DNA from: Nakamurella endophytica | GTDB lineage: Bacteria; Actinomycetota; Actinomycetes; Mycobacteriales; Nakamurellaceae | Direction: 5' to 3' | DNA length: 64,000 nucleotides | NCBI RefSeq assembly: GCF_014646215.1 | Contig: NZ_BMNA01000007.1 | Span: 62,001-126,000 of the forward strand | Shown: piece by piece, positions 17,650 through 57,652 of the stretch | How the letters are laid out: every line of letters begins with the position of its first letter | Numbering within the stretch: position 1 is the stretch's first letter | The notes under the pieces: generated by a model | Told to the model about the DNA's origin: nothing | Seen by the model: the letters and a program-made list of their open reading frames with translations, nothing else | Database searches by the model: none | Made by a program: the position numbers and the translations under genes

Positions 17650-17669
17650 GACTCCCCACCCCTTGCATA

Positions 17670-27081: not shown

Positions 27082-27108
27082 CTCGATTGCTCCGCTCTGT
27101 TCGGTGGC

Positions 27109-30324: not shown

Positions 30325-30330
30325 CGCCGG

Positions 30331-30999: not shown

Positions 31000-31001
31000 C
31001 C

Positions 31002-31322: not shown

Positions 31323-32530
31323 CAGGAGTGCTCCTCATCGTGGGTGGATTCGGCGATCGCTAGCGGCCGCAAGGTCGATGGGGGCGTGTTGAGGTGGTGC
31401 GCGGTGCGAGCCAGGGCGCACACCAGCTCGGCCAGCGCGCCGGACACGGCGCGGTCCCAGCCGCCGACCGGGACCGGGCTGCGCCGCAGCACCGGGGCCT
31501 TGGGAAGAACCAGCACGTCGGCGGCGGTGGCCGCCAGCCGCTGCGCCGTGCGCAGCACCCCGGGCCGGGAGCCCGCCGCATCGCAGAGCACCAGCACCGG
31601 GCGGCGGGTCAGTCCCGCGGCGTCCAGCTCGGTCAGTGCGGCCAGCGCGGCGGTCACCCCGGCCGAGTCGGCGCGGGCCACCATCACCGCCGGCCCGTCG
31701 TGATCCAGCAGCAAGGCCCGGGTATCGGCGTGCTCCAGCGATCCCAGATCGGCCACCACCGCCGTGTCCGCGGTCAGCCGCTCAGACAGGCGAGGCCACC
31801 AATGCGCGCCCGCCTGAACCACTCGGGCGCCACTGGGCCCCGACGGAAGCCCGGCCAGGTCCGGCGCCTGCTCGACGTCCGACGGCAGCCACCCACCCAC
31901 GGACACCGCATCCACCGCGCCGCACACCTGCCGAGTCAGCTGCGAAAATTCCCGGCGCGCCAGCTCCACGGCCAGCACCTGGTCCGGCCGGGCCGCCGCC
32001 ATCAACCCGACCAGCGCCGCCACCACGGTCGTCGCCCCGACACCGCCACCGGCCGCGCAGACCAGCACCCGGGGCGCCGGGACGGTATCGGTCAGCCACA
32101 ACCAAGCCCGGAGCGCGGCGGGACCGGTGAACCCCGCCGGAGCCGACCGACCCGCCGCGATCACCGTCTCGTCGGGCCCCGGCGGCGTGGCTTCCGCCAC
32201 AGCGCGCCACCGCGGCGCCCACCGCCGCGATCTCCCAGGGCGCTCGGCCGGCTCGGTCTCGGCCGGCTCCTGCGCCTCGCGCACGGCCGGTTCGGTGGCC
32301 GGTTCGACGTCTCGTTCCGGCGGCTGGGTGGTGGCCGCAAGGGGTGCCGCCGCCCGCTCGGAAGGCGCGATCAGTCGCGGCCGCATGGTCGCCCGGGCCG
32401 CGGCCATCGCTTGCGCCGCCACGAGCGCCGCCTGCAGCTCGGCCACCGTCAACAGCCGACCGGTCGCCTCGTCGACGTCGCCGCCGTCCAGGACCGACCG
32501 ATGCTGGCCCGGCAGACCGATCTCCGCCAT
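31322..32530 (-). CDS. ParA/MinD-like protein with non-canonical P-loop, first gene of the conjugation operon
   Basis: ATG 32530 is chosen at MAEIGLPGQH; the frame is open further upstream. The 402-residue product has a polar Ala/Glu/Pro-rich N-terminal half and a C-terminal ParA-like Rossmann domain. The P-loop reads CAAGGGVGATTVVAAL: glycines are kept, but the nucleotide-binding Lys of GKT is Ala. Other ParA-like features remain (AVVADLGSLEH, VMVARADSAGV). Such degenerate MinD-like proteins are known near VirB/Tad operons and may act as localisation or regulatory partners without ATP hydrolysis. It opens the operon and overlaps the VirB2-like gene. Confidence 0.75.
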   Translation of the reverse strand: MAEIGLPGQHRSVLDGGDVDEATGRLLTVAELQAALVAAQAMAAARATMRPRLIAPSERAAAPLAATTQPPERDVEPATEPAVREAQEPAETEPAERPGRSRRWAPRWRAVAEATPPGPDETVIAAGRSAPAGFTGPAALRAWLWLTDTVPAPRVLVCAAGGGVGATTVVAALVGLMAAARPDQVLAVELARREFSQLTRQVCGAVDAVSVGGWLPSDVEQAPDLAGLPSGPSGARVVQAGAHWWPRLSERLTADTAVVADLGSLEHADTRALLLDHDGPAVMVARADSAGVTAALAALTELDAAGLTRRPVLVLCDAAGSRPGVLRTAQRLAATAADVLVLPKAPVLRRSPVPVGGWDRAVSGALAELVCALARTAHHLNTPPSTLRPLAIAESTHDEEHS

Positions 32531-33356
32531 GCGCCTACCCACGGACAACCCCGCTCGCGGCGCTGCCGGCAAGCCGGTGCCAGCGTCGGTCCGGCACCCG
32601 TGGAGTCGCGGTTGCAGCCACGGCCCCACCGGTCCCCCGACCGAGCACCGCCCGGCGTTCCCGATCCCTCACGCCCTAGACAGGTTCGGTTCGAGGCCGA
32701 ATGTGGACACCACGAACGGAGCAATCTGGATCGACACGACTCGCCGACCCGTCCGGGGATTGGGGCTCGCGTGCTAGGGCCCCGCGGACTTCGCCCGGCC
32801 GGTTGTGGATTACCCGCACTCGGACGGCGTCCGGTAGTCGATCGAGGATAGCGGCGCATCAATGGGTCGCGCGACTCGTTCGCCTTGGATCAAGCTCCCG
32901 CGCCCGCCGGCTAAGGAAGCAGCGTGTCCCCCACGACCTACGCAGACGTGCCCACCGATGACGACCCGTTCTAGCGCCCCACTACAACGGCTCCACGCCA
33001 AGGCGCCCGGATACCCGCAGCCCGAGGTGCTCGTCGACACCAGCGGCCGCTCGCAGGACACCGTCGCACTATCGACACGGATCATGGTCGAGTGCGTCAT
33101 GCTGCCCCGGACGAACAGCGGACGCGGGGCTGGCCACGGTTGCGCGGCTGGCCGGTCGCGCATCTCGTTGAACAGCTTGCGGACCTAGCGGCGGACACCC
33201 CTGTCGGCGACGGCTTCAGACAGTGAGGTGCTCTGTCCCTGCAGGGGGATCATCACCCAAGCGGCGCACACCGGCATACCCGAGCCGGCCATCCGGAATA
33301 GCGCCTGAGCGTGTGAGAGTCGACCGATCACACCACACCGGGCGCCGCGACCCGGA
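32531..33356. other. 826-bp intergenic region upstream of the conjugation operon
   Basis: No convincing gene is seen. Short open frames on both strands have no ribosome sites and arginine/serine-heavy shadow-type composition. The promoter of the conjugation operon must lie here or just inside; no box is clear enough to mark. TTCGG and CCGAA arms around 32686-32702 form a weak dyad. Possible cis functions such as oriT cannot be shown. Confidence 0.5.
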
Positions 33357-33797: not shown

Positions 33798-34562
33798 CTA
33801 CGCCGCCCGTTCCAAAAGAAATCGGGGGCCCGCGGCGCGCAACGCCGCCAAAGTCCGGTCCCGCCGGCGGCGCAGCGTCCGCTCGTTGATACCAAGCTCG
33901 GCGGCGATCCGATGCCGGCTCCGCGAGCCGTAGCCGGCCCGCTCCTGCAGCGCGACAAGCATCCGCAGGTCGTCGGGGTCGGCGATGCTGTTGCGCTCAG
34001 CCCACCGCATCAGGTCGGTGAGCATCACCTCCTGGGCAGCGGGCGCCTCGGCAGGTGCAGGCAGCGAGCGCCAAAGCGAGTCGAGCGGGTCGAGCGAGAC
34101 GTCGCGGCGAGTGCCGTCCGGGCCGAGCGCAGGCAGCTCCTTCAGCAACGCGTGCTTGGTGTCCAGTAGCAGATTCGCCGCGTACGCGCGGGTCCGCCGA
34201 CGCCACGGGAACGACCGGATCTGGCAGGTCAACTCGCCGGCGACCAGCGCCACGGCCTCCGCCCACGGATGCGGCAGACGGGACGCCAACGAGTAGATCC
34301 CGTCACTGAGCAGGTGCAGCAGCACCAGCGCCGCGTCCGGGTCTGCCATCCCGTCGACGGCTGCGACTCGGATCAGCGCGCCCAGGACGCGGTCGGACTC
34401 GCCGCGGTCCGAATGGACGGCCGTGCACGACGGCAGCCCTGCCGGCGACGGCACCGTCGCCAGCTCCGGCGCCCACGTACGCCACCGCCCAAACGCACCC
34501 GCGCGATCCAGCCGCTCAAGCAACACCGACCAGTCACCCACCGGCGAACAGTCCTGGAACAC
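33798..34562 (-). CDS. Putative transcriptional regulator with C-terminal helix-turn-helix
   Basis: GTG 34562 is set by GGAGG seven bases upstream (VFQDCSPVGDWSVLLERLDR); 254 residues. The N-terminal 190 residues are helical with no recognised domain. The C-terminal 65 residues carry a sigma-region-4-like helix-turn-helix: ERAGYGSRSRHRIAAELGIN followed by ERTLRRRRDRTLAALRAAG. This suggests a DNA-binding regulator of the mobile element, possibly of conjugation. The 880-bp gap upstream separates it from the toxin-antitoxin pair on the other strand. No close family is recognised. Confidence 0.7.
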   Translation of the reverse strand: MFQDCSPVGDWSVLLERLDRAGAFGRWRTWAPELATVPSPAGLPSCTAVHSDRGESDRVLGALIRVAAVDGMADPDAALVLLHLLSDGIYSLASRLPHPWAEAVALVAGELTCQIRSFPWRRRTRAYAANLLLDTKHALLKELPALGPDGTRRDVSLDPLDSLWRSLPAPAEAPAAQEVMLTDLMRWAERNSIADPDDLRMLVALQERAGYGSRSRHRIAAELGINERTLRRRRDRTLAALRAAGPRFLLERAA

Positions 34563-35443
34563 GATCAACCTCCAGAAGATCAAGACCCAATGTCTCGACC
34601 CTCCGAAGCGCAGTCAGTCTCTTGTCAGTGATCGGTCAGCAGTTGCTGGTCGACCTTGCGTGCCGTGGCCACTGACACGCACAGCCCGCTCAAGCAGGAG
34701 CCCAACCGAGCCCGGTGGCGAGGGCCGGCCCATTAACGCCGTGAACGTGTGGCGAAACGTGCGCGGGCCGGGCGGTCGCCGGCGTCAGCGCTGACAACGC
34801 GACGAGCGCAAGATCAGCAGCAATCCCGCGTAGACATCGGCGACCCGGCCCGGCTTACGAGATCGCTGGTCGGAACTGCCTGTCGTCCGGGGTCGCGACC
34901 AGCGGCCGTGGCGGCATCCAGTGCGAAGTAGAAGACGCCGGACGTCCGGCACCACATCGGCAGTGTGCTAATAGCCGCGATTTAGGTCGTACTAGGTCAC
35001 TGGAACGATCCCGCACACCACGGACGCGGGGTCCGGTTTGCCGTGCTCGTCCGTCGCGATCAAGTGCCTCAGACAGCCGCACCACCAGCCCGGGCGAGGC
35101 GACTGGGCGCGTCACGGCGGTCCACGGTGATCCTGACCGCAGCACGAGCAGCCGGCACGGCGGTCCTCTCGAACGCCATCACCGCCCAGGCCTCTCCCGA
35201 CCGCACCGCGAGCGTCGTCGTCGTCGTCGACAGACTTGGGTGCAGCAGGAACTGTTGTAGGAGGCCAGCGACCGATCGCTCACGCAGAGCCCGGGATCGG
35301 CCGAGAGACAGAGCACCACGGTGCGCAGCCGTGCGCATGTCTTGAGCGCGACTGGAGGTGGACGCGTGTCCGTCGTGCCTTGTGGTGTGAAACGGCGTGT
35401 GAAGCTGGCTGTCATCGAGTCGGTGCCAGTTGTACGGTGGGGC
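34563..35443. other. 880-bp region without convincing genes
   Basis: Between the divergent HTH regulator (34562, minus) and the antitoxin gene (35444, plus). Base composition is slightly less GC-rich than the neighbours. Open frames on both strands are short, overlap each other and lack ribosome sites. It must contain the promoters of both flanking genes; no clear operator was found. Confidence 0.5.
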
Positions 35444-35839: not shown

Positions 35840-35846
35840 CCCCGCA

Positions 35847-36795: not shown

Positions 36796-37437
36796 CTATA
36801 GCCACAGCGCAAGGACCGCGCCGGCGAGCAGGGCCGGGCCCATGGGCACCGTGACGGTGCGGCGGAGCCCGCGGCGGCTACGGGCCGCCATCGTGACCGC
36901 GGTCAGCGCGGCCAGCAAGAAGGTCAGCAGCAGCGCCTGCCAGACGTCAGCCCAGCCGACCCAGCCCAGCACGCCGCTGGTCAGCGCGGCCAGCCGGGCG
37001 TCGCCGAGACCGGTCGTGCGGGGCGAGAGAAACCAGAGGGCCAGCCACAGCACGCCAACCGTCAGCGCCGCAAGGCCGGCGCGCAGCAGCGGACCAGCGT
37101 CGCCGCCGATGACCGCGGCGGCGACGAGCGCGGCGGCGATGAGGGCGGCCAGCGGGTAGGTCAGCCGGGCCGGTAGCAACTCCGTCTGCGCGTCGACGAC
37201 GGCCAGGACACCGCCGCCGACGGCCAGCAGCCACCACGCCACCGACGGGTGCCCGGCAGCGGCCAGCAGCACCAGCGCGGCGGTCACCGCAGCGACGGTG
37301 GCCCAGCGCCGCGCACTGACCGGCCGAAGCCGCCACCAGCCCCTGTGCTGACCCGCGGCCAGCGCTGCGGTCCACGCCGCTGACAAGGGGCTGACCGCGA
37401 CCGCGGCGACGACCGACACCAGCAACGGCCAGGTCAT
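36796..37437 (-). CDS. Prepilin peptidase (A24 family, TadV/CpaA-like)
   Basis: ATG 37437 follows GAAGG at 6 bp; 213 residues with about seven hydrophobic helices. The two aspartates of A24 aspartic peptidases are in AVVDAQTELLPARLTYP and GLGDARLAAL (GxGD type). The N-terminal methylase domain of PilD is lacking, as in TadV/CpaA. It would cleave the leader of the Flp pilin encoded at 42510-42710 and possibly of the TadE-like proteins. It is the last gene of the pilus operon, 37 bp after the LysM-BTAD gene. Confidence 0.85.
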   Translation of the reverse strand: MTWPLLVSVVAAVAVSPLSAAWTAALAAGQHRGWWRLRPVSARRWATVAAVTAALVLLAAAGHPSVAWWLLAVGGGVLAVVDAQTELLPARLTYPLAALIAAALVAAAVIGGDAGPLLRAGLAALTVGVLWLALWFLSPRTTGLGDARLAALTSGVLGWVGWADVWQALLLTFLLAALTAVTMAARSRRGLRRTVTVPMGPALLAGAVLALWL

Positions 37438-37474
37438 CGCCACCTTCGACCGCCCGTGCTGGGGGTCGGGTCGT

Positions 37475-40400
37475 TCATGCCGCCGGCGGTAGGAGTTGGC
37501 GGCGCCGCAGTACGTCGTAGGTGCGCGGCGACAGGTCCTCGAGGTCGTCGGCGCCGTGGTTGCGCAGGATCTGCTTGACGTGGGCGTCGCCCTCGGCGCG
37601 GCGGTCCTGAGCGTCGCAGGCCCAGACCAGGTCCAGCAGGGAAATGTCGCTGGCGCCCTCCACGCCCCGCGTCGCGGTGAGCGCGATCTTCGCGGCGGCC
37701 TCGGCCCGGTCGGGCTCGCCGACGGCGAGGTGGTGGGTGGCCACGGCGTGGGCCAGGTCGACCATCGTGGCGGTGTACTCGTGGTCGACCGGGCGGCCGG
37801 CCAGCCAGCCGTAGCCGCCGGGCCGCTGGTTGTCGAACGGGGCGCCGCGGACCAGGTGAAGCGCCTGCCACCAGTCGGCCAGCCGGTCGTCCTGCTCGTC
37901 GCGGGTGAACCCGCGCAGCCGGAGCCGGCGGAACAGCTCAGCGTCGATCAGCACGTCCTCCAGCCGGTACAGGGCGCCGTTGGTGGCCGCGTTGCGGGGC
38001 AGGTACTCGGTGCCGGTGCGGGCGTTGACCCCGAGCGCCCGGCGAAGCTCGTAGATGCTGTTGCGCAGCTTGGTGCTGCCGGCAATGCCCGGATCCTCCG
38101 GCCACAGGTCCGTGCCGTACTGCTCGGGGCTCACCCCGGTGGGATGCATGGACAGGTAGACTGCGATCTCGGCCTTCATCGGCGACAGCGGCCGCGGCGA
38201 GGCGCCGCCCCGCGGCCACACGGCCACCGCTCCCAGCACCGCGATCCGCGGTCGGCTGCTGGCCCGGTCGGTCCACTCCGCCACGTCGGCGTCCAGGTCC
38301 GGGTCACCGGCGGCCAGCTGCTCACGGACGTCGGCCTGCACCACCGGCGCCATCGCCTGCAGGTCGCGGGAAGTCGTGGCGGACTGCTCGAGGTAGACCT
38401 GCTCCGGCAGCGGCAATGCCGAGTCCGCCCGCGCCCACCGCGCCTCATCCGGCTCCGGGCGGGGATGCGTCGAGACGGGCTTGTCCTCGGGCAGCGGCGA
38501 GGCGACCGACCCCTCGTCGGTGTTCACGGCCAGGGCCAGCAGCTGCGCCAGCTGGCCGGCCTGCTCGGGCGGGATCTGCTGGGCGATCAGTTCCAGACCG
38601 AGGTCGGGGATGGAGAGCACGCCGTGCTCGTCGACCCGCAGCACCCACCCGCCGTCGCCCGCCGCCGCGACGTCGGTGTCGTCGGTGTTCCCACCGGTGG
38701 TCACCACCAACGCGACGGTGGAGCGGTCCCCGCGACCGGTCACCGCATCCAGCAGCTCGGTCAGGCCGGCCCGGTCGGTCGCGTCGTCCGGGAGGGCCTG
38801 CGGGGCGATGAGCAGCACGTGCGGCGCCCAGGCATCGCCGGCGATGCCCCGGCCGCGGCCGTCCAGCACGGGCAGGCCCGACTCGTCCACGACGGCGGCC
38901 ACCGACCGCAGCTGCGCGGTGACCGCGTCCAGGGCTGCGGCCGGGTCCGCGGCGTAGGTGAGCCGGTCCGGGTGCATCTGTGCCATCTCGGCGCCGAACC
39001 CGACCAGGGTCACCTGCAGCAGCTCAGCCCAGGAATTGTGGGCCAGCTCGGCGGCCAGGAAGCGGGCCAGGTTCGTCGCCCGCTCGGCGTCCCCGGTCAG
39101 CGTCAGCGCGCCGATGCGTTCCAGGTCCAGCAGCCAGTGCTCACCGCCGGCGGTGTAGCCGACGGTGGCCAGCGTCGGATACGGGGTGACGTCGCGGTCG
39201 CGGCGCTGCGGGTCGTACCCGGTCGACTGGCCTCGGTCCAGGACCCAGGTGCCGTCCGACTGCGGCGTCCACGCACCCACCGGGGTCGGGCACGGGCTGG
39301 CCAGCACCAGCCGAAGCCGGGTGTCGGTGGCGCACACCGCCAGGACGTCCGGCAGGGACAAGGCGCCGTCGCTGGCCGCGACCGCGTGGCCCAGGCCGCG
39401 CAGCGCCTCATCCAGCCACTGCGCGTCGGCGGAGCTGGCGCCGCCGACGCTGCGCAGCGCCCGCTCGATCTCCAGCAGCCCGGACGGCGCCGCGGCGACC
39501 AACTCACCGGGGCGGCGGTGCTGCAGCTGCCGGCGCCGTGCCCGCACCAGGGCCGCTAGCAGCAGCGCGGCCAGCACCCCACCGCCGCCGGCGAACACCG
39601 CGAACGACGTCGCCACCGACGACGAGGACGAGGAGTTGGACGAGGATGAGTCGGACGAAGGCGAGCCGGCCGCCGGAGAGGAGACGGCCGGCGTCAGCAC
39701 CGGCGCAGTCGGCACGCTCGGCGCCGAGGCAGGAGCCGCCGATGGGCTGGCCGGTCCAGTTGCAGCGGCCGACGGGACGGAGTTAGCGGTGCCGGGGCCT
39801 GTAGCGGCCAGCGGCGTGGAGTCCGCCGGACCGGGCTCCGTGGCGGCCGGCGGCGTGGAGTCAGAGGCGCCGGGCTCCGTGGCGGCCGGCGGCTGTGCAG
39901 GTTCTGGCGGGGTCGGAGCGGCTGACGGGCCGGAGTCAGTGCCAGCCGACGGCTGGGCGTCGGCCGGGCGCGGGATGGTGATGGTCCAACCAGGCTCGAT
40001 GTCGTCCGGGTCGGTCAAGGCCTGCCCGTCGGGCTGGGGGACGCCGGTGTTGGCGGCGATGACCGCGTCGAGGTCAGCGCCGCGAGCTGCGGCGATGCCG
40101 GACAGAGTGTCCCCGGGCTCGACGACGACCCGGTCCGCGGCCATGCCGTTCGAGCCGGAGTCAGTGGCCGCGCCGGCGGAGTCAGTGCCGGAGTCAGTGG
40201 CCAGTGGGGCCGGGATGGTGATGGTCCAGCCGGGCTCGATGTAGTCCGGGTCGGTCAGGTGCGCGCCGCCGGGCTCGGCGCGGCCGGCGTTGGCCTGCCA
40301 CAGCTGCGGCCAGTCCCCGGAAGCATGCTCGGCGGCCAGCTCGGACAAGGTGTCCCCCGGCTGCACCGTGACGTCCACCGCTACGTCAGCAGCGGCCTGC

Positions 40401-41095
40401 GCGGCTGACCGCGCTGCCGGCTCCGTGGCCGGGACGAGCACCGTCCAGCCGAGCTTAAGCACGGTCCGGTCGTTGCGCAGCACGGTGCCGTCGTCCTGGG
40501 CGCGGCCCTGGTTCAGCTCCCACAGCTGGTGCCACCGGGACCCGTCGCCCAGGTGTTGGACGGCAAGGTCCCACCAGGTGCGGGCGCCGTCCGCGGACAC
40601 GCTCACGGGCTGGGTGGGCACCTGCGGGCGGGGTGCCGGAGCGACCGTCGCCGGGGCCGCGGCGGGTGCCGGCGGCGGCGCCGCCGCCGGAGCCATGGCA
40701 AGTGCCTGTGCGGCGGGGGCGACCGTGGACAGGGTCAGCGGCAGGAGCAGTAGGGCGCCGTTGACTAGTGCCCGGGCCAGGCCCTGTTGAAAGCCGAACA
40801 CGCCGGGGATGCGCCGCGGCATCGGGGTGCGGCGCAGCGCCGAAGCGAGCTCGACCACGAACGCGATGGCGAACTGGGCCCATGCCAGCCACACCACCGC
40901 GGCGATCGCGGCCAGGATCACCTGGTCGTTGACGTCGCCGGCGAGCAGGTCCGGCAGCCGGTCCAGCGGGTTGCCGATCGTGGTGGCCAGCAGCCACGGC
41001 ACCCCGACCACCAGCAGCGCGGAGGCCACGGTGGACGCCAGGACGCGCAGCAGCCGCCCGATCACCCGGGTGCCTGCCGTGGACGAGGTGGGCAT
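37475..41095 (-). CDS. Membrane LysM-BTAD regulatory protein of the pilus operon
   Basis: The 1206-residue product has two or three N-terminal membrane helices (to about residue 130), an outside part with three LysM-like modules (about 165-225, 240-297 and 320-375; VQPGDTLSELAAEHASGDWP, VVEPGDTLSGIAAARG, IEPGWTITIP), a Ser/Pro/Thr linker with DSTPPAATEPG repeats, another membrane helix (about 495-525) and a cytoplasmic region. The last 260 residues are an OmpR-like winged helix plus BTAD repeats (GSTKLRNSIYELRRALGVN, FRRLRLRGF). It could couple peptidoglycan binding to gene control or protein contact. Related proteins occur in actinomycete Tad loci. ATP-binding motifs are not seen. Confidence 0.88.
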   Translation of the reverse strand: MPTSSTAGTRVIGRLLRVLASTVASALLVVGVPWLLATTIGNPLDRLPDLLAGDVNDQVILAAIAAVVWLAWAQFAIAFVVELASALRRTPMPRRIPGVFGFQQGLARALVNGALLLLPLTLSTVAPAAQALAMAPAAAPPPAPAAAPATVAPAPRPQVPTQPVSVSADGARTWWDLAVQHLGDGSRWHQLWELNQGRAQDDGTVLRNDRTVLKLGWTVLVPATEPAARSAAQAAADVAVDVTVQPGDTLSELAAEHASGDWPQLWQANAGRAEPGGAHLTDPDYIEPGWTITIPAPLATDSGTDSAGAATDSGSNGMAADRVVVEPGDTLSGIAAARGADLDAVIAANTGVPQPDGQALTDPDDIEPGWTITIPRPADAQPSAGTDSGPSAAPTPPEPAQPPAATEPGASDSTPPAATEPGPADSTPLAATGPGTANSVPSAAATGPASPSAAPASAPSVPTAPVLTPAVSSPAAGSPSSDSSSSNSSSSSSVATSFAVFAGGGGVLAALLLAALVRARRRQLQHRRPGELVAAAPSGLLEIERALRSVGGASSADAQWLDEALRGLGHAVAASDGALSLPDVLAVCATDTRLRLVLASPCPTPVGAWTPQSDGTWVLDRGQSTGYDPQRRDRDVTPYPTLATVGYTAGGEHWLLDLERIGALTLTGDAERATNLARFLAAELAHNSWAELLQVTLVGFGAEMAQMHPDRLTYAADPAAALDAVTAQLRSVAAVVDESGLPVLDGRGRGIAGDAWAPHVLLIAPQALPDDATDRAGLTELLDAVTGRGDRSTVALVVTTGGNTDDTDVAAAGDGGWVLRVDEHGVLSIPDLGLELIAQQIPPEQAGQLAQLLALAVNTDEGSVASPLPEDKPVSTHPRPEPDEARWARADSALPLPEQVYLEQSATTSRDLQAMAPVVQADVREQLAAGDPDLDADVAEWTDRASSRPRIAVLGAVAVWPRGGASPRPLSPMKAEIAVYLSMHPTGVSPEQYGTDLWPEDPGIAGSTKLRNSIYELRRALGVNARTGTEYLPRNAATNGALYRLEDVLIDAELFRRLRLRGFTRDEQDDRLADWWQALHLVRGAPFDNQRPGGYGWLAGRPVDHEYTATMVDLAHAVATHHLAVGEPDRAEAAAKIALTATRGVEGASDISLLDLVWACDAQDRRAEGDAHVKQILRNHGADDLEDLSPRTYDVLRRRQLLPPAA

Positions 41096-41096
41096 G

Positions 41097-41585
41097 TCAG
41101 GACGCTCCCGTGGTCGTGCCGTGCAGAGGGATCGCGGTGGCGGTGGCGCTGCCGCCGACCTCGTCGATGCCGACGATCGCCAGGATCGCGGTGGGCTTGC
41201 TGGCGCGGGCGGAGACGGTGACCCGGGATCCGGTCACGGTCACTTCTCCTTCAACCCCGGCGGCGGACAGCACCGCCTGCGCCGCGGCCCGCGCGGCGGC
41301 TGGGTTGGCGGTCAGCCCGGCCGGGGTCGGGCTCCGCAGCGACATGCCGTCCAGGGCGTCGGCGCCGGCGCGGGCGGCCTGCTGGGCCACGTCCGCCGCC
41401 TGCCCGCGGGCGGTCAGCGCCGCGCCGCCGTCCAGGACCAGCCCGGCCAACGCGAACAAGGCGAAGGTGATGACCACCAGGTAGCCGGTGATCGAGCCGC
41501 GGTCGCCCTCTCGGCGCAGTACCAACCAGCGCCGGCGGAGCAGGCCCCCGATCCGAGCGGCCGCCCCGCGGGTGCGGCCGCTCAC
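41097..41585 (-). CDS. TadG-like pilus assembly protein
   Basis: GTG 41585 overlaps the previous stop as GTGA; 162 residues. A short basic N-terminus is followed by DRGSITGYLVVITFALFALA and GLVLDGGAALTARGQAADVA, the pattern of the TadE/TadG-like N-terminal helix. A small outside domain ends in TAIPLHGTTTG. It is a pseudopilin-like or minor pilus protein. It stands between the TadE-like gene and the LysM-BTAD gene. Confidence 0.8.
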   Translation of the reverse strand: MSGRTRGAAARIGGLLRRRWLVLRREGDRGSITGYLVVITFALFALAGLVLDGGAALTARGQAADVAQQAARAGADALDGMSLRSPTPAGLTANPAAARAAAQAVLSAAGVEGEVTVTGSRVTVSARASKPTAILAIVGIDEVGGSATATAIPLHGTTTGAS

Positions 41586-42067
41586 GATCCACCGGCCCGG
41601 GAATCGGCGTACTGCCGGTAGGTCTCCAGCGGCGCGGCGCCAGTCGCGGACATCCTTGCCGACCCGGGGACGCCGGCTAGGGTCAGGCCGGACAGATCCG
41701 CGGTGCAGGTCACGGTGACCCTGACGGTGCCGCCGGCCCGGAACGAGCTGGTGTCCACGGCGGTGCTCATCGACGCGCAGGACACCCCCGCATCGGACAA
41801 CGCCCCCGACGCCGCCTGGACGGCGCGGTCCTGCGCCTGCGAGGCCGTCGAGGCCAGCGACGCGGCGCGGGCCGCTGCCGCCGCGGCCTGCTCCACCAGC
41901 TGCTTGCCGTGGGCGTACCGGCCCAGCGCCACTACCAGCAACAAGATCACGACTACGACCGGAGCGATGATCACCAGCTCCGTCGTCGACGCGCCCCGGT
42001 CCCGGTTCTGCTGGCCGGTGGATGCCAGACGGCGGCGCAGCGCCGCCGGCCAGCCGGCGGCGGTCAT
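41582..42067 (-). CDS. TadE-like pseudopilin
   Basis: ATG 42067 overlaps the previous stop by 4 bp; 161 residues. The motif DRGASTTELVIIAPVVVVIL is the TadE processing/anchor region with the conserved Glu, followed by an outside domain with two or more cysteines (VSCASMS, VTCTADL). TadE-like minor pilins are cut by prepilin peptidase and help start Flp pilus assembly. Confidence 0.85.
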   Translation of the reverse strand: MTAAGWPAALRRRLASTGQQNRDRGASTTELVIIAPVVVVILLLVVALGRYAHGKQLVEQAAAAAARAASLASTASQAQDRAVQAASGALSDAGVSCASMSTAVDTSSFRAGGTVRVTVTCTADLSGLTLAGVPGSARMSATGAAPLETYRQYADSRAGGS

Positions 42068-42492
42068 GGCGCACCCGCCGCGGTGAACGCCTCCACCGGG
42101 GCGCTGGCGGATTCGTCGACCGTGAAGCGACCGAACGGGATGACCGACAGCACGTCGGCGTGCACGGTCACCGTGACGGTGGTGGCGGCCCGGACGACCT
42201 GCACGTCCCGGCCGGGCAGCAGGTTGGCCGCGACCTGCTGCAGGTAGGCATCGCCGTCGGCCTGCCCGAATGCTGCTGTGCCCTGGTAGGCGGCGGCGGA
42301 GCGGGCGGCGATCTGCGCGGCCGCCTGGGCGACGTGGCGGCCGTGCCAGAGCAGCACGGATTGCACCACCACCATCGTCAACACCACCACGATCGGCACG
42401 ATCAGCACCGCCTCGACGGTGGCGGACCCGCGGTCAGGGTCGCCAGCAACCCGGCGCCACCGGCGCCGGGTCCACCCCAGCAATCCCCGCAC
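42064..42492 (-). CDS. TadE/TadF-like pseudopilin
   Basis: GTG 42492, 18 bp after the pilin stop, gives 142 residues. DRGSATVEAVLIVPIVVVLT is the TadE-type helix with Glu; the rest is an exported domain (AYQGTAAFGQADGDAYLQQV) without cysteines. It is the second of three TadE/G-like genes in a row. Which one corresponds to TadE or TadF cannot be told. Confidence 0.82.
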   Translation of the reverse strand: MRGLLGWTRRRWRRVAGDPDRGSATVEAVLIVPIVVVLTMVVVQSVLLWHGRHVAQAAAQIAARSAAAYQGTAAFGQADGDAYLQQVAANLLPGRDVQVVRAATTVTVTVHADVLSVIPFGRFTVDESASAPVEAFTAAGAP

Positions 42493-42509
42493 GGGCCGAT
42501 CCGCTGCGG

Positions 42510-42710
42510 TTACTGCAGGTCGATGCTGTTGGCCTTGCTGGTGATCTTGGCGACGATGATGCCGCCGATCACCAGGGCCGCCACCACGATCAGCGCCACC
42601 CAGATCACCGTCTCCGACGTGTTGCTGCCCCGATCCGGCTCCTCCTCGCGCAGCGCGGCGACCCTGGTCATCACCCAGGTGCGAACCATCTCCAACTCCA
42701 GCTTCAACAT
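42510..42710 (-). CDS. flp: Flp-type pilin
   Basis: ATG 42710 is preceded by AAAGGAA; 66 residues. A leader of about 30 residues ends in EEEPDRGSNTSETVIWVALI, with a Glu-containing helix IVVAALVIGGIIVAKITS. This is the size and layout of Flp/Fap pilins in actinomycetes. Processing is expected just before or within the GSNTSE region by the A24 peptidase of the same operon. A gap of about 105 bp separates it from tadC, so pilin may be expressed from an extra promoter. Confidence 0.78.
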   Translation of the reverse strand: MLKLELEMVRTWVMTRVAALREEEPDRGSNTSETVIWVALIVVAALVIGGIIVAKITSKANSIDLQ

Positions 42711-42815
42711 GTGCGTTCCTTTCACAGAGGGGTCGTGACGCGCTCTCGTCGGCGGTGGTCACGTCAGTGCGGGTTGGCTTGGTCAGGTCGGAATGATCGG
42801 GTCGGGGATGGCGGG

Positions 42816-43745
42816 TCAGAAGGACAGGACGGCGACGACGGCGGGGTACCCGAGGAAGGCGATAAACCCCAAGCCGATCAGGATCTGCGCGATGCGCATG
42901 CTCTGATCGGCCTTGCCTGCCTTGCCCTCGAGGTTGGCCAATTCATGCCGACGCATGGTCTGGGCGCGGGCGGTGAGCGTGGAGCGGACCCGGGCGCCGT
43001 CGTGGGCGACCAGCGCGATCAGCTGGCCCAGATCCCGCAGCTCGCCGACGCCGATCCGCTGCCCCAGGTCGGCCAGGGCCGTCCACGGGTTCCGCCCGCC
43101 CCGGGTGGCGCGGTAGAGGGTGTCCCGGATCAGGGCGAGCGGCCAGCCGGCGCCAATGCGGGCCGCCGACGGCAACGCCTCGGCGGGAGCGGCGGAGCCG
43201 GCCATCTCCAACGCCACCAGGTCCAGGTAGGCACCCAAGGCGCGGCGGAACTCCTCCCGGCGCCGGGCGGCCTCGGTGCGGGCGTCCAGATCGGGCAGGA
43301 AGAAGAACGCCGCCGCGAGCACCAGGGCCAGGATCACCGGGGCGCCCGCGGGCAGCGCCAGCCCCGCCACGGTCAAACCGACGGTGGCCAGCAGACCCAG
43401 CAGCAGGCCGGCGCCGGCCAAGGTGATCTTGCGGCCCAGGGCGTCCTCAACGGTGCGGCCGGTCAACGCCAGGTCCTGCCGCAGACTGGTGTAGCCGACG
43501 CCGCGGCGGGTCAGCTGCCAGGCGAGCCACCGACCCGACTGCCCCTGCACCCGCGCCAGGACGCCGCGCCCGGCGCCGGCAGCACCGGCCTTCTCGGCCT
43601 GGGTGAGCGCCGCTGCGGTGGCGCCGTGCCCCGCGTCGAAGTGGGCCAGCTGCACCAGCGGCGACGTCTTGGGCGGCGCCAGGCGCACCAGCAGCGCGAA
43701 CAGCACCCCTCCGAGCGCGGCGCCCAGGACCACGGCGGCGATCAC
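42816..43745 (-). CDS. tadC: TadC inner-membrane platform protein (GspF-like)
   Basis: GTG 43745 overlaps the tadB stop; 309 residues. It has an N-terminal helix, a central helical pair (LAGAGLLLGLLATVGLTVAG, APVILALVLAAAFFFLPDLD) and a GspF/TadC cytoplasmic domain (AYLDLVALEMAGSAAPAEAL, DLGQLIALVAHDGA), ending in a terminal helix. With TadB it forms the platform for Flp pilus extrusion. Confidence 0.9.
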   Translation of the reverse strand: MIAAVVLGAALGGVLFALLVRLAPPKTSPLVQLAHFDAGHGATAAALTQAEKAGAAGAGRGVLARVQGQSGRWLAWQLTRRGVGYTSLRQDLALTGRTVEDALGRKITLAGAGLLLGLLATVGLTVAGLALPAGAPVILALVLAAAFFFLPDLDARTEAARRREEFRRALGAYLDLVALEMAGSAAPAEALPSAARIGAGWPLALIRDTLYRATRGGRNPWTALADLGQRIGVGELRDLGQLIALVAHDGARVRSTLTARAQTMRRHELANLEGKAGKADQSMRIAQILIGLGFIAFLGYPAVVAVLSF

Positions 43746-44701
43746 CGGATCACCTGCCGGCGCAGCGTGCCGCTGCCGGTCGTCGGCATCGGGTTGTCGA
43801 CCAGGGTGGTCACCAGCCGGGCCTCGAGGGGGTCGGGCTGCGCGTCCGGGCGGGTCAAAAACGGCGGCACCGGAGCCTGCACCGACAGCTTGCGCATCCA
43901 GGCAAACGCCGCGGCGAAGATGCCAACCACCACGGCCAGGGCCAGCTGCCCGGTGACCGTGGAGTACGGGGCGATGTAGGTCTTGCTGAACACCACTAGG
44001 AACACCGCGATGGCCACGGTCACCCCCACGACCATCTGCATGCCGCGGCGCAGCTGCGCGCGGCCGGCGGAGATCTTCCGCCGCATCTCCAGCTCCTCCC
44101 GCGCCGAGGACGCCAGGCCGGTCAACACCTCGCCGAGCCGGTCACCGCGGCGACGGACGTTCAGGATCAGCGCGGCGATCACCAGGTCGGCGCTGGGGTC
44201 GTTCAGTTCGGCGGCCAGGTTCAGCAGCGCCCGGTCCATCGGGACCCGGGCCCGGATCTGCCCGACCAGCCGCACCAGCGGCGCCCGGATCAGCTCGGGC
44301 GCGTTCACCGCCGACGCCGGGATGGCGTGTTCCAGGCTGGCGTGCGCGGCGATGGTGTCGCGCAGCGACTCCGTCCACACCACCAGCGCCTCGAGCGAGG
44401 CGATCTGCCGGGCCTCGGCGGCGCCGCCGCCGAACAGCTTCGGCCACAGCAGCACCAGCGTGGCCAGCCCGGCCGCGGCGACCGGCCAGCGGGTCAGCGC
44501 AAGCACCGCGACGCCGACGACCGCGGCGGCCAGGATCCGCCCGGACAGCGCCGGCGAGCGCAGCGCCGCCACCGCGCGGGCGGCCCGCGACGGGGGGCGG
44601 GTCGGATCGACGGTGGTGCCCCGCAGTCCCACGACGATCAGCAGCAGGCCGGCGCCCATGCCGATGCCCAGCAGCACCGTCAGCGCCATGGTCCCGGTCA
44701 C
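43742..44701 (-). CDS. tadB: TadB inner-membrane platform protein (GspF-like)
   Basis: GTG 44701 overlaps the tadA stop; 319 residues. Membrane helices flank the GspF domain, which shows ASLEALVVWTESLRDTIAAH, ASLEHAIPASA and RGDRLGEVLTGLASSAREEL. Typical TadB length and order (tadA-tadB-tadC). It anchors the ATPase TadA at the membrane. Confidence 0.9.
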   Translation of the reverse strand: MTGTMALTVLLGIGMGAGLLLIVVGLRGTTVDPTRPPSRAARAVAALRSPALSGRILAAAVVGVAVLALTRWPVAAAGLATLVLLWPKLFGGGAAEARQIASLEALVVWTESLRDTIAAHASLEHAIPASAVNAPELIRAPLVRLVGQIRARVPMDRALLNLAAELNDPSADLVIAALILNVRRRGDRLGEVLTGLASSAREELEMRRKISAGRAQLRRGMQMVVGVTVAIAVFLVVFSKTYIAPYSTVTGQLALAVVVGIFAAAFAWMRKLSVQAPVPPFLTRPDAQPDPLEARLVTTLVDNPMPTTGSGTLRRQVIR

Positions 44702-46050
44702 GACGTCGGCCCGCTCGGGAAGTGGAACGAGGTGGCGGTGTCGTCGTAGCCGGCGTCGGCCAGCTCCTCCAGCCGGGCGTCGCTGATGGCGACGTCGTCG
44801 ACCCGCACCGCGCGGCCATCAAGCGGGGACGGCCCGAAGATCCGGGCCGAGGCCACCCGGCCGTCCGGGGCGCCGGCCAGCTCGACCACCTCGGTCACGG
44901 TGCGGCTGCCACCCAACCGGCGGTTCTTGCCGATGAACACCACGAAGTCGACCGCGCCGGCGATCAAGGCGTGGGCGACCCGGTTCTCGATCCGCTCGTA
45001 CTGCTCGGCGTACTGGGCGAGCTTGGCGAACACGTCGGCCGCGGACCGGGCATGCAGCGTCGACAGCGACCCGTTGTTGCCCTGGCTCATCGCCGACAAC
45101 ATCTCCACTACCTCGGGGCCCAGGACCTCGCCGACCACCACGCGGGACGGGTTGTGGCGTCGGGTACGGCGCACCAGCTGCTGGATGGTGATGCCGCCGT
45201 GACCCTCGGCGTCGGGCAGCACCTCCTCCCACTCCACGACGTCGGCGTGCAGGCCCTGTCGGCGAATCCCGAGCTCCAGAGACCGCTCCACCGTGATCAG
45301 CCGCTCATCGCCCTGGATGCAATTGATACAGGCCCGCAGCAGCGTGGTTTTCCCCGCGTCCGTGGCGCCGGCAATGATCAGATTCATCCGGGCGCGCACC
45401 GCCGCCTGCAGGAACACCGCCAGCTGCTCGTCGATGGTGCCCAGCTCGACCAGCTGCGACAGGAACATCTGCGGGTAGCGGTTGCGGCGGATCGACACCG
45501 CCGGCCGCTCCCCCGCGCCCATCACCGCCGACAGCCGAGACCCGTCCGGCAGCCGCAGGTCCAGCTCCGGGTTGGCTCGGGTGAACGGGCGGGCGTTGAT
45601 GCTGGCGTAGGCGGCCAGGTTCTGCACGATCTGGACCAGGTCCTCGTCCGCTGCGGCGATCGGTGCGCCGCGGACCTTGCCCCGGTCGGCGTAGCTGATC
45701 CACACTTCGTCGCAGCCGTTGATGTCGATGTTTTCGACCTGGTCGTCGTCCAGGAGTTCCTGTAGCTCGCCGGCTGCGTAGATGGCCGAGTCCACGGCCA
45801 TGATCAGCCGCAGGTCGTAGCCGGTGTCCGCGGGCAGCTCGCCGCCCGCCTTGACGATCTCGGCCTGGTGCGCCTGCACCGCGCTGGTGATCAGGCTCAG
45901 CGCCAGCTGTCGCTCGTCCGGCTCGGACAGCTCGCTCAAGCCCCGGCGGTCCCGTTCCTGCTTGGCGCGGGTCATCGCGTCGGCGACCTGCACCCGCAGC
46001 GCCTTCACCAGCTCGTACTCCACCGGCGTCTCGCTGACCGGCCCGGTCAC
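44698..46050 (-). CDS. tadA: TadA/CpaF-type pilus assembly ATPase
   Basis: GTG 46050 overlaps the cpaE-like stop; 450 residues. It is a secretion ATPase of the VirB11/GspE group: Walker A IIAGATDAGKTTLLR (about residue 229), acidic boxes, and Walker B RVVVGEVLGPEVVEML with the His box GSLSTLHARSA. It powers Flp pilus growth. The N-terminal part (ELQELLDDDQVENIDINGCD) is the usual CpaF region. The C-terminus extends about 30 residues beyond the core. Confidence 0.93.
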   Translation of the reverse strand: MTGPVSETPVEYELVKALRVQVADAMTRAKQERDRRGLSELSEPDERQLALSLITSAVQAHQAEIVKAGGELPADTGYDLRLIMAVDSAIYAAGELQELLDDDQVENIDINGCDEVWISYADRGKVRGAPIAAADEDLVQIVQNLAAYASINARPFTRANPELDLRLPDGSRLSAVMGAGERPAVSIRRNRYPQMFLSQLVELGTIDEQLAVFLQAAVRARMNLIIAGATDAGKTTLLRACINCIQGDERLITVERSLELGIRRQGLHADVVEWEEVLPDAEGHGGITIQQLVRRTRRHNPSRVVVGEVLGPEVVEMLSAMSQGNNGSLSTLHARSAADVFAKLAQYAEQYERIENRVAHALIAGAVDFVVFIGKNRRLGGSRTVTEVVELAGAPDGRVASARIFGPSPLDGRAVRVDDVAISDARLEELADAGYDDTATSFHFPSGPTS

Positions 46051-46904
46051 GGAGCCACCGCCGGTGCCGGCGCCGTCGTCGACTCGGCGTGCACGTCCGC
46101 TGACGAGTCGGTGGCGTCGAAGGTCGCGGTCAGGGACGGCCAGGTAGCCAGCACCGACTCGGCGACCGAGCGGGCCGAGCGCACCAGCTCGCTGCCCGCC
46201 AGCCGGCGCGTCATCACCCCGGCCCACAGCTGCTGCGCCACGGCCGGGTCGTGCACGAAGCAGCCCAGCACCGGAGCCGGTGAGCCGACCGAAGCCAGGA
46301 CCTGATGCACCTGCTCGACCGCGGCCCGGCGCTGCTTGACCGGGGCGGTCACCACGACACCGACCCGGATCCGGTCGCCCTCCCCTGGTCCGACCATGCC
46401 GGCCAGCTCCACCACCCGGTCCCGGACGTGGAACAGCCCCTCCAGGTCCGCGCGAGTCAGCAGCAGCACCGCCGTCGACGCCTGCGCCACCGGCGCGGCC
46501 GGCGCACCCGGGTGCAACCGGCCCAGATCGGCCAGCACCGTTCCCGGCCAACCCGCCAGAGCCTGACCCAGCCCCGGCCACAGCGACCGCAGCGGCCGGA
46601 ACCGCTCCGCCGATAGCACTCCGGGCACCACCGGCACGCCCAGCGAGGTCTCCTGCGCGAACGGCAGCGGTCCGGCCCCGGTCAGCCCCAGCCGCGCAGC
46701 CGTGGCCAAGCCCGCGATCGACGGGTCCGGCGCCAGATGCGACAGCGGTGTGTCCGCGGCCGCCGGGTGCAGCCTGAACGACAGGTCGCTGCCGGCGGTG
46801 TCGGCCTCCACGACCGCCCGGGGGCCGGGCCACACCACCCCCAGCGCCGTCGCCAGCGTCGTCACCCCAGGGGCACCCTTGTCCGAGCACACCGAGACGA
46901 TCAC
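46047..46904 (-). CDS. CpaE/TadZ-like ParA-family protein with degenerate P-loop
   Basis: The 285-residue product has a MinD/ParA fold starting MIVSVCSDKGAPGVTTLATA. The signature Lys of ParA (DKGxxG) is kept, but the P-loop Lys of GKT is Val (GVTT). VVEADTAGSDLSFRLHP and TAVLLLTRADLEGLFHVRD are the other ParA-like elements. TadZ/CpaE proteins mark the cell site for pilus assembly, and several are atypical ATPases. It lies directly before tadA, as usual in Tad operons. Confidence 0.82.
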   Translation of the reverse strand: MIVSVCSDKGAPGVTTLATALGVVWPGPRAVVEADTAGSDLSFRLHPAAADTPLSHLAPDPSIAGLATAARLGLTGAGPLPFAQETSLGVPVVPGVLSAERFRPLRSLWPGLGQALAGWPGTVLADLGRLHPGAPAAPVAQASTAVLLLTRADLEGLFHVRDRVVELAGMVGPGEGDRIRVGVVVTAPVKQRRAAVEQVHQVLASVGSPAPVLGCFVHDPAVAQQLWAGVMTRRLAGSELVRSARSVAESVLATWPSLTATFDATDSSADVHAESTTAPAPAVAP

Positions 46905-47638
46905 GACGCCGGCACCTTCACCAGCGCCGCCGACGCCGACGCGCTTGCCGCCGCGACGGCGGGCCCGTCGGCCGCGGGCACCAACAGCGTCAGCAGGGTC
47001 CCGCCGGCCTGCACCGGATCCGGGTGCGCCGCGTAGACCGTCGCCGCGTCGACGAGCACCACCGGCTTCCCGGCGTCCCCGCCGGGCCCGGACTGCTGCT
47101 GCCCGGACGGCAGCGCCAGCACCTGCACCCGGTCGCCCGGCACCAAGCCGTCCGCGGGCAGCTGGCCGCCCTTCACCGCCACACCGACCTGCACCTGCCC
47201 GGCCGGCATCGGATCCACGTCAGTCACCATCGAGCGCTGCAGCAGCGTGTGCGGCAGCAGCGCCACCGCGGCCCGCTGCCCCACCACCGAGTGCAGGTTC
47301 GCGCCGGCGATCGCGGTGATGTCTCCCGCCACGTCCACCGTCGACAGGTCGCTGCGCTCGATCACCTGGCCCACGGCCACCGGCTGGGCCACCACCACCA
47401 CCGGGACCTTCTCGCCCGCCGTCGAGTACAGGTAGCCAAACCCGCCGCCCAAGCCCAGCACCAACAGCGCGCCCAGCGCCGCATACCCAGGACGACGCTG
47501 CCGCGTCGGCAACGGCGACCGCGCCACCGGCGTCGCCGCACCGCCCTTCCCCACCGTCGGCGCCGCGGCCGGGCGTGCGCTGCCGTTCGTCCCCACCGGG
47601 CGGGCCGAACCGTTCACCCCATTGACTGACGTCGTCAC
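46901..47638 (-). CDS. CpaB/RcpC-like SAF-domain protein
   Basis: GTG 47638 overlaps the previous stop; 245 residues. A Gly/Ala/Pro-rich cytoplasmic start is followed by one membrane helix (YAALGALLVLGLGGGFGYLY) and a SAF domain (VVVVAQPVAVGQVIERSDLS, GQRAAVALLPHTLLQRSMV), then VKGGQLPADGLVPGDRVQV. CpaB/RcpC proteins are envelope parts of Tad machines thought to bind peptidoglycan or guide the pilus. The position before cpaE and tadA fits. Confidence 0.85.
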   Translation of the reverse strand: MTTSVNGVNGSARPVGTNGSARPAAAPTVGKGGAATPVARSPLPTRQRRPGYAALGALLVLGLGGGFGYLYSTAGEKVPVVVVAQPVAVGQVIERSDLSTVDVAGDITAIAGANLHSVVGQRAAVALLPHTLLQRSMVTDVDPMPAGQVQVGVAVKGGQLPADGLVPGDRVQVLALPSGQQQSGPGGDAGKPVVLVDAATVYAAHPDPVQAGGTLLTLLVPAADGPAVAAASASASAALVKVPAS

Positions 47639-48717
47639 CGGATCACCACCTGAATCTGCTCCACCAAGAACGAAGACGAGGAGGACGTCGTCGAGGCCGG
47701 GAACGTCCCCGACGCCCCGGTGTTGCTGGTCCAGCTCACCTCCCACTGCACCGACGTCGTCGCCCTCAGCGGGCCGTTCGGCGTCACCGACCGGTAGCTG
47801 TAGCCGCACGCCCCGTTCGACGCAGGCTCGTTGCCGTCCGCCGCAACCCACGGCCGACCCGGACCCGCACAGGTCACCGCCGCGTTGCCGTCGCCCGGGT
47901 CGAACGAGAGCCCCGTCGGCGTCGCAGTGGCCGTCGCCGAAACGCCGCGCAACGCAACCGTCCTGGTCATCGGCTGCCAGTCATCCACCCAGAAGTAGGT
48001 GCTCAGCCCGACCCACGTGTACGGCAGGCCGCCGTACGCAGGATCCGAGTTGGTCTCCGGCGGCGACCGGTGCGCCACCGGCGACGGCAGCGTCAGCTCC
48101 GTCCTGGCCTGCTGCGCCAACACCGCAGGATCCGGCGGCGGCGGGGGCGGCGGCGCTGCGGCCCCGCCGCCCAGCGCCGAATCGGGCACGTACACGAACT
48201 GCTCCGGGCCACCGTTGCACGAGTTCGTCACCAGCGACCCGGCCGCCGGATTGTTCGAACCCCAGCGCGGGTCGCCCGCAGGCACATCGTCCGCCACCCG
48301 CCACTGACACTCCATCGACGCCACCGCATCCGGATCCGGCGCACCCCCGCCGGAGCCACCAGAGCCACCTGAGCCACCGGAGCCGCCGGAGCCGTCGTCG
48401 CCGCCGCCGCTGGTGTGGCCGGCCAGCTCGTCGACGGCTGACCCCACGCCAGAACCCACCGACGACCCACTTCGGGCCGTACCCGCCGCCCTGATCGCCT
48501 GCTCAACCTGGCCCGGCTCCAACCCGCCACCGGAACCCGACGACCCACCAACCGACAACGTCAACGAGTAACTCGATCCGCCGAGCAGGCTGCCGTCGCC
48601 TGCCACCACTTGGACCGGAGGCGGGTCGGCGTGCGGCGCCGCAGCGGCCGCTATCGGGAACGACAACACCGCAGCACTGGCAAGAGTCGTCGCAACAGCC
48701 CACTGACGGGCTAGCAC
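47635..48717 (-). CDS. Exported protein of the pilus operon with Gly/Ser linker
   Basis: GTG 48717, overlapping the end of the previous gene, gives 360 residues with a signal peptide (TTLASAAVLSFPIAAAAAPH). The N-terminal 70 residues are followed by a GGSGGSGG linker, a domain with cysteines (ASMECQWRVADDVPAGDPRW, TNSCNGGPEQFVYVPDS), a proline stretch of eight residues, and a C-terminal domain (YTWVGLSTYFWVDDWQ, AVTCAGPG, NGACGYSYR). No family is recognised; similar exported proteins accompany actinomycete Tad loci. It may be an outer pilus-associated or wall-bound factor. Confidence 0.7.
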   Translation of the reverse strand: MLARQWAVATTLASAAVLSFPIAAAAAPHADPPPVQVVAGDGSLLGGSSYSLTLSVGGSSGSGGGLEPGQVEQAIRAAGTARSGSSVGSGVGSAVDELAGHTSGGGDDGSGGSGGSGGSGGSGGGAPDPDAVASMECQWRVADDVPAGDPRWGSNNPAAGSLVTNSCNGGPEQFVYVPDSALGGGAAAPPPPPPPDPAVLAQQARTELTLPSPVAHRSPPETNSDPAYGGLPYTWVGLSTYFWVDDWQPMTRTVALRGVSATATATPTGLSFDPGDGNAAVTCAGPGRPWVAADGNEPASNGACGYSYRSVTPNGPLRATTSVQWEVSWTSNTGASGTFPASTTSSSSSFLVEQIQVVIR

Positions 48718-49499
48718 GGCTCGTCTTTCAAGTAGTAGACCTGCTCGACGCGCCAAACACCGTCCCGGCCCTTAACCATCCGGCCCTGGTAGTGGTCCCG
48801 GGCGACACCGACCGTCAGCTTGTTGCCGGTCGCCACATCCAGCGACCCGCTATGACTGCGATCCTGACAGTCCGAGATCACCGCACTAGCGCCACCGTTG
48901 ACGGCGCGGGGCCACGAGATCCGGTGCCCCAGCGTCCCGTACGTGCGCACACCCTGCGCGTCGAACCTCTTGGCGTCACTGAGCATACTCGCCCGCGCAG
49001 GATCCACCGCCACTGCGTCCACCGCAGCAACACGATCAGCAACCGGCGTCCGGGCGAGCGCGAGATACACGTTCCAGGAACGGATCCACTGCGCCTGGAT
49101 CGCTGCCCGGTCCTGCTGCTCCTCCGACTGGGCCGACGTTGATGCCGACGGACTCGTCCCAATAGAGGATGAGGACGGGCCCGACGACGAGGATGTCGTG
49201 CCCATCGTCGGCGCCGACGTCGAAATGTTTGCAGAGCTCGACGAATCATCGCTCGGCGTCACAGGCGGCGTCGAGGACGGCGCCATTGGGGTCGTTGAGT
49301 CCGCGACGGTCTGCGTAGCCACAGTGGTCGAGGAACTCGGCACGGACTGTGTAGTAACACCCGCATCGCCCCGGCAGCCGGTCGCAAGAAGCACGGCACC
49401 GACGGCTGACGCCACCGCCAACGCCCCCCGAACCCGCACGAACCAACTCCTTGCATCACCTCGGGCACCCACGTCCGTGCCCGACCGGCCGAGCGTCAT
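48711..49499 (-). CDS. Lipoprotein heading the pilus operon
   Basis: ATG 49499 gives 262 residues with lipobox LATGC near residue 42, then a Ser/Thr-rich linker of about 90 residues. The C-terminal 120 residues (WIRSWNVYLALARTPVADRV, ending GVWRVEQVYYLKDEPC) resemble NTF2-like secretion accessory domains. It overlaps the following exported gene by 7 bp and appears to be first in the 12.7-kb pilus operon. A diverged partial copy of its 5' part and upstream DNA lies at 53.3-53.9 kb. Confidence 0.72.
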   Translation of the reverse strand: MTLGRSGTDVGARGDARSWFVRVRGALAVASAVGAVLLATGCRGDAGVTTQSVPSSSTTVATQTVADSTTPMAPSSTPPVTPSDDSSSSANISTSAPTMGTTSSSSGPSSSSIGTSPSASTSAQSEEQQDRAAIQAQWIRSWNVYLALARTPVADRVAAVDAVAVDPARASMLSDAKRFDAQGVRTYGTLGHRISWPRAVNGGASAVISDCQDRSHSGSLDVATGNKLTVGVARDHYQGRMVKGRDGVWRVEQVYYLKDEPC

Positions 49500-57588: not shown

Positions 57589-57652
57589 CCGCTGAAGAGA
57601 ACGACCGGACCAGTTGGCGCTGGCAACCCGGTCTGACCCCGAAGGGCCTGTC

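Follow-up and report, generated by a model that had tools for sequence, protein, structure and literature searches.

A Tad pilus operon beside type IV secretion genes on a candidate conjugative element of Nakamurella endophytica

Tad (Flp) pilus operons located beside conjugation genes are known from linear plasmids of C. acnes. The tad locus of pIMPLE-HL096PA1, with its LysM,BTAD gene, was reported by Kasimatis et al. 2013 (PMC3666418), and the occurrence of the same operon beside VirB4/TcpC genes on these linear plasmids has been published (PMC3666418, PMC5696575). Surface TadE and appendages were also reported, and a link between the pilus and conjugation was already asked about (PMC5696575; Davidsson et al.). 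Here we consider a related locus of Nakamurella endophytica. The window, a stretch of 64,000 nucleotides, covers bases 62001-126000 of contig C7 (133,786 bp), one of the 30 contigs of a 4.94 Mb genome. It contains a Tad/Flp pilus operon of 13 co-directional genes (36796-49499, minus strand) and, about 4 kb from it on the same strand, a type IV secretion system (T4SS) module (19898-32629); the same contig also encodes a relaxase, and operons of this gene content and order recur on mobile elements. The first-pass annotation of the window took this arrangement for its strongest candidate for an undescribed combined system. This is not supported, as a neighbourhood of this operon and conjugation genes is already in the literature for pIMPLE-HL096PA1 and p09-9 of C. 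acnes (PMC3666418, PMC5696575). The tad-T4SS pairing itself was known before, and the window adds another case. A survey paper on this pairing across actinobacteria was not found in the open-licence literature, which is a weak negative.

The operons of pIMPLE-HL096PA1 and p09-9 share with the window the order SAF, TadZ, TadA, TadB, TadC, small prepilin, three TadE and LysM-BTAD. A ParA gene lies next to the operon, and genes encoding a VirB4-type ATPase, a C40 peptidase, a TcpC-like protein and FtsK are adjacent. However, their T4SS is of the TcpC type and divergent, whereas that of the window is of the SCO6880 type and lies on the same strand as tad. Moreover, no A24 peptidase is annotated right after LysM-BTAD, and the part of the sequence that was read has no MOBF relaxase. 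In pNOCA01 of Nocardioides JS614 and pTC1 of Paenarthrobacter aurescens TC1, tad with LysM is followed by SCO6880 and VirB4 on one strand, and a MobF-helicase-Toprim relaxase is present; pTC1 also has a homologous backbone gene. On the other hand, their TadA proteins are only 40-42% identical to that of the window, no peptidase directly follows LysM, and pNOCA01 has an insertion between TadB and TadC. The plasmid pKRAD01 of Kineococcus radiotolerans carries the complete operon, with a prepilin peptidase as its last gene, as well as ParA and an adjacent T4SS, but the latter is of the TcpC type and divergently transcribed. Chromosomal tad/LysM operons of Nonomuraea, Streptomyces, Kribbella and others have the same gene set and order, with TadA identity of up to about 50%, but no conjugation genes were found nearby. 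A pilus of another kind is the thin (type IV) pilus of R64 (IncI1), a conjugative plasmid that depends on it for mating in liquid; unlike the pilus of the window, this one is of type IVb, Gram-negative and not Tad.

The pilus operon and the conjugation module

All genes of the complete Tad operon named in the first-pass annotation are present on the minus strand between 36796 and 49499. Most of the named parts are backed by Pfam or NCBIfam matches, by which gene identities were assigned (some are below the family cut-off, as marked here); the Flp pilin and TadZ have no Pfam match, and BTAD was recovered only from an AlphaFold model. At the majority of junctions, neighbouring genes share 4 bp, and there is one 105-bp gap upstream of the pilin gene.

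The first gene encodes a candidate lipoprotein with a lipobox-like N-terminus (48711..49499). Its homologue occupies the same place in G298, another genome of the genus (60% over 156 aa), and a weak one was found in pKRAD01. The second gene encodes an exported protein (47635..48756) conserved in place in G298 (49%), in G335, a genome of the same order and another family (44%), in a Nonomuraea plasmid and in pFRL4. They are followed by genes for a CpaB/RcpC protein with a SAF domain (46901..47638; Pfam SAF 9.3e-7) and a TadZ/CpaE-like ATPase (46047..46904), the latter identified by homology and position; it has a KGAPGVTT P-loop and homologous, syntenic counterparts in pNOCA01, Kitasatospora, G298 (62%) and G335 (48%). 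The TadA/CpaF pilus assembly ATPase (44698..46050) matches T2SSE (9.7e-33) and TIGR03819 (2.9e-57, below its cut-off), and its nearest solved structures are CpaF pilus ATPases (1e-40, as against 1.7e-17 for VirB11). The platform proteins are TadB (43742..44701; T2SSF 2e-6) and TadC (42816..43745; T2SSF 0.003, below cut-off), which is 59% identical to its homologue at the same place in G298.

Four proteins have prepilin-type sites, written here with a slash. The putative Flp-type major prepilin is a protein of 66 aa (42510..42710) with the motif DRG/SNTSE followed by a hydrophobic helix; this assignment rests on its position, size and the G/SNTSE motif. Two TadE-like pseudopilins belong to the TadE family PF07811 (42064..42492, 2.7e-10, DRG/SATVE; 41582..42067, 3.6e-11, DRG/ASTTE). 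A TadG-like protein (41097..41585; PF13400 Tad 2.3e-6) has DRG/SITGY. Glu is found at position +5 in G/SNTSE, G/SATVE and G/ASTTE, and is absent from the TadG-like site. The last gene of the operon encodes an A24 prepilin peptidase (36796..37443; Peptidase_A24 2.7e-6) with both the VVDAQ and the GLGD aspartates. No secretin match was observed among the operon proteins, as expected for a one-membrane cell.

Between the TadG-like protein and the peptidase lies the gene for a membrane protein of 1206 aa (37475..41095) with two LysM domains (3.9e-16) and a SARP/BTAD-like end. It has three N-terminal hydrophobic segments, then the LysM domains, a fourth segment (residues 493-521) and, behind it, a tail of about 685 residues. 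Pfam did not find BTAD in this protein, whereas two of the seven aligned proteins do match it. An AlphaFold model of the last 290 residues, made with 24 sequences (pLDDT 89), matches EmbR of M. tuberculosis (E 8.8e-6) and AfsR of Streptomyces (1.5e-5). In this model the C-terminus is a SARP-like winged helix followed by BTAD. The count of membrane segments suggests that the LysM domains are outside and the SARP-like part is inside the cell. Such a cytoplasmic end may relay the state of the wall or of the pilus to transcription.

The genes of the T4SS module are also on the minus strand. They encode a ParA-like or ATPase-type protein (31322..32629; weak BcsQ-type match, 4.4e-5); a small VirB2/TrbC-like membrane protein (31002..31322; TrbC/VirB2 0.024 and DUF6112 0.017, both below cut-off) with counterparts in genomes G012, G043, G105, G289 and G238; a large membrane protein assigned by position (27109..30324; no Pfam family); and an SCO6880-family protein (25558..27081; NF042935 1.1e-73, above cut-off). 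The latter is adjoined by the gene of a VirB4-like ATPase (23948..25561; VirB4 families 1.5e-10, partial and below cut-off; AAA_10 0.0025), a protein conserved in pNOCA01 and pTC1. Then come a VirD4/TraG coupling protein (22083..24704; TraG-D_C 4.4e-17, T4SS-DNA_transf 3.2e-14), whose true start is probably later because the 5' end of its frame overlaps the VirB4 frame, and an NlpC/P60 and lysozyme-like cell-wall hydrolase (19898..21022; NLPC_P60 2.8e-18, SLT_3 4.6e-6). The family matches of the cluster proteins include no separate VirB11, and no long-pilus genes of its own are apparent in the module.

Recurrence and mobile setting

The relaxase of C7 is a protein of 1,923 aa (C7:32117-37888, some 24-30 kb to the left of the window; TrwC 6e-84), a fusion of a MOBF relaxase, a RecD-like helicase, a DnaG N-terminal domain and a Toprim primase. 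Relatives of near full length are found on pTC1, pNOCA01, two Pimelobacter plasmids and Nocardioides QY071, and the tad LysM gene is present on all of these plasmids too. Beyond the window, C7 also encodes ParA (2.1e-23) and an RHH protein, which are partition genes. Within the window, at 57614..59647 on the plus strand, there is a plasmid backbone protein with a winged helix, possibly a replication protein or primase; it has homologues on 129 plasmids, mostly of Arthrobacter and other actinobacteria, the best matches being 43-47%. No tRNA was detected on C7. The first-pass annotation had placed tad on the same element as the conjugation system, and indeed one contig holds both, together with the MOBF relaxase, the partition genes and the plasmid backbone gene. 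Very probably, a functional Tad operon is carried here by a mobile conjugative element.

The LysM-BTAD protein has matches on 146 plasmids from about 20 actinobacterial genera. Neighbourhoods were read in several cases. The tad operon is adjacent to an SCO6880-type T4SS in pNOCA01, pTC1, G012, G043, G105, G289, G238, G201 and G335; G012 has two such copies, each with TrwC. It is adjacent to a TcpC/VirB4-type T4SS in pKRAD01 and in plasmids of Kitasatospora, Brachybacterium, Micrococcus and C. acnes. The SCO6880-linked members of the TadA tree require at least four changes, and thus the T4SS-linked TadAs are polyphyletic and do not form one clade. A survey for linked tadA and SCO6880/virD4, proposed in the first-pass annotation, did yield pairs on actinobacterial plasmids and integrated elements; in 297 genomes, eight SCO6880-TadA pairs at most 40 kb apart were observed against about 1.4 expected, where the expectation assumes uniform placement with no correction for phylogeny and the eight include the pair of the window itself. 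SCO6880 systems are also found without tad nearby. By MOB-suite, 119 of the 146 LysM-BTAD plasmids were called non-mobilizable, and several of those so labelled carry T4SS (VirB4/TcpC) genes; plasmid typing seems to miss actinobacterial transfer systems.

An integrated case is G335, where the order is tad, LysM-BTAD, a junction gene, P60, SCO6880, VirB4 and VirD4. Both modules lie within a 76-kb element (2331760-2408009) bounded by perfect 45-bp repeats of the end of a tRNA-Gly, with an integrase beside the tRNA and, inside, a relaxase-like gene called by sequence reading rather than by a family search. G313, a genome from the genus of G335, has these flanks at a distance of only about 2.3 kb and lacks the element. 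In the genus of the window, a close TadA was found in only one of the 16 other genomes, G298 (74%), where the operon lies beside a tyrosine integrase and a tRNA-Leu, and a 28-bp repeat of the tRNA end occurs 124.5 kb away. Since the operon is in a block bounded by attachment (att) repeats in G335, has an integrase/tRNA-Leu setting in G298 and is patchy in the genus, it is accessory and travels on integrative elements.

The junction gene of the window (33798..34583, minus strand) encodes a protein ending in a helix-turn-helix (HTH), and elsewhere it also stands between LysM-BTAD and the T4SS. Its homologue in G335, located between LysM-BTAD and P60, is 38% identical over 256 aa (2e-32); in pNOCA01 and pTC1 there are only weak local matches (42-45 bits) and the position. 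A tblastn search of plasmids with this gene at 1e-5 gave no match. Between it and tad there are genes for an Xre/MbcA-type antitoxin (35321-35839; Xre_MbcA_ParS_C 0.0076, below cut-off) and a RES-domain toxin (35787-36587; 1.7e-9), both on the plus strand. This toxin-antitoxin pair is plausibly a later insertion.

Possible roles of the pilus

Judging from sequence, conjugative elements have repeatedly taken up a Tad pilus of a known actinobacterial kind, probably as an organelle of contact or adhesion. The LysM-BTAD-type Tad (type IVc) operon would be a backbone module of a conjugative plasmid or plasmid-like element with a MOBF relaxase and an SCO6880/VirB4/VirD4 T4SS. By analogy with known Tad biology, the A24 peptidase would cleave the Flp and TadE/G prepilins, and TadA, placed by TadZ, would drive TadB and TadC, so that a thin fibre is extruded to the surface. 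The SAF and LysM proteins would anchor the base of the pilus in the membrane and the wall, a secretin being unneeded in a one-membrane cell. We infer that the fibre may bind donors to recipients or to surfaces and so stabilise contacts for the T4SS. An adhesion role that also raises transfer is slightly more likely than not. A wider proposal, that Tad pili are recurrent mating-contact organelles recruited independently by at least two T4SS types, and that the LysM-SARP protein couples contact of the wall or pilus to transcription of transfer genes, is speculative and rather doubtful. Should the Tad fibre be what lets Gram-positive donors grip recipients where a conjugative pilus is lacking, the contact organelle would be identified for a large class of actinobacterial plasmids and integrated elements. 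As the pairing recurs across T4SS and element types, several soil hosts offer themselves for a test of the mating-contact hypothesis.

Several observations weigh against the reading favoured here, and the chromosomal copies against a dedicated role. Among the named tad/LysM loci, 47 of 48 have no T4SS marker within 10 kb on either side, and the chromosomal loci of G133, G216, G104, G164 and G151 have no VirB4, VirD4 or SCO6880 marker in about 30 kb on each side. Chromosomal copies make up the majority, and most of them stand without conjugation genes in their neighbourhood, so that the operon is not specific to conjugation. In G298 there is no SCO6880 gene near the operon, the SCO6880 gene of this genome being at 481 kb, 2.5 Mb away. 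The Flp models of Pfam do not match the 66-aa prepilin even at E<=1. Finally, C7 appears to be a plasmid or a plasmid-like element, but it is a draft contig with open ends, and no terminal overlap between them was found.

One alternative is that the pilus is cargo, aiding colonisation of surfaces or biofilm formation by the host, and that the element gains through host fitness while DNA transfer proceeds independently of the pilus. Operons of this family are widespread on chromosomes that have no T4SS, and Flp pili serve adhesion or colonisation in other bacteria, according to the discussion in PMC5696575. We consider this possible though clearly less probable than a role that includes transfer, as tight linkage recurs with two T4SS types, both on plasmids and in a tRNA-bounded element, and the T4SS-linked TadAs are polyphyletic. 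Import of DNA by the operon is improbable. Although tad is required for transformation of Micrococcus luteus (as cited in PMC5696575), the neighbours are conjugation genes of the export type, and the annotation of the neighbouring genes in related plasmids names neither ComEA nor ComEC, although no search was aimed at them.

It is still less likely that TadA and its partners are parts of the T4SS, with TadA replacing VirB11 and no pilus made. TadA does belong to the VirB11/CpaF superfamily, and the T4SS cluster lacks a visible VirB11 of its own. However, the structure matches are far nearer to CpaF than to VirB11, and on these the substitution was rejected; in addition, conservation extends from TadA to TadB, TadC and TadE/G, and in many cases to the peptidase, and both SCO6880 systems without nearby tad and tad without a T4SS exist. 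A chance neighbourhood of a chromosomal tad locus and an inserted element, with a boundary between 33 and 37 kb, was named in the first-pass annotation as one finding that would overturn its reading. Many members of the class have tad operons on the chromosome and C7 is a draft contig, but this explanation is largely refuted and has the lowest probability of all: the junction gene at 33798 is conserved, the 45-bp att repeats of G335 enclose both modules, the operon is patchy in the genus, and C7 lacks tRNAs and has plasmid backbone genes.

Other observations on the contig and related sequences

The sequence NZ_LR594676.1, named "Variovorax sp. PBS-H4 plasmid 2", encodes Lsr2, an LPXTG protein and a MobF relaxase of actinobacterial type that shares 53% identity with the C7 relaxase. 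The plasmid probably belongs to an actinobacterium in a mixed culture and not to Variovorax. Other T2SSE ATPases are encoded on contigs C1, C4 and C5 of the genome considered here; they are distant and do not represent second copies of the tad operon. Contig C15 (82 kb) has a second TrwC relaxase at 21512-22720, within an open reading frame that spans 2,272 aa. A P60-type hydrolase is encoded about 11 kb off and there is no SCO6880 match; this is possibly a second mobile element.

A row of consecutive NuoN-, NuoM-, NuoL-, NuoK- and NuoJ-like genes at C7:52137-57902 may encode the membrane arm of complex I, or else a transporter related to it; the remaining complex I genes were not seen nearby. 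The window also carries metal-resistance cargo at 3384-8345 and 13396-17715, namely two copper-type P-ATPases, an ACR3 arsenite pump, a methyltransferase (ArsM-like by position) and a flavoprotein resembling CoA-disulfide reductase.

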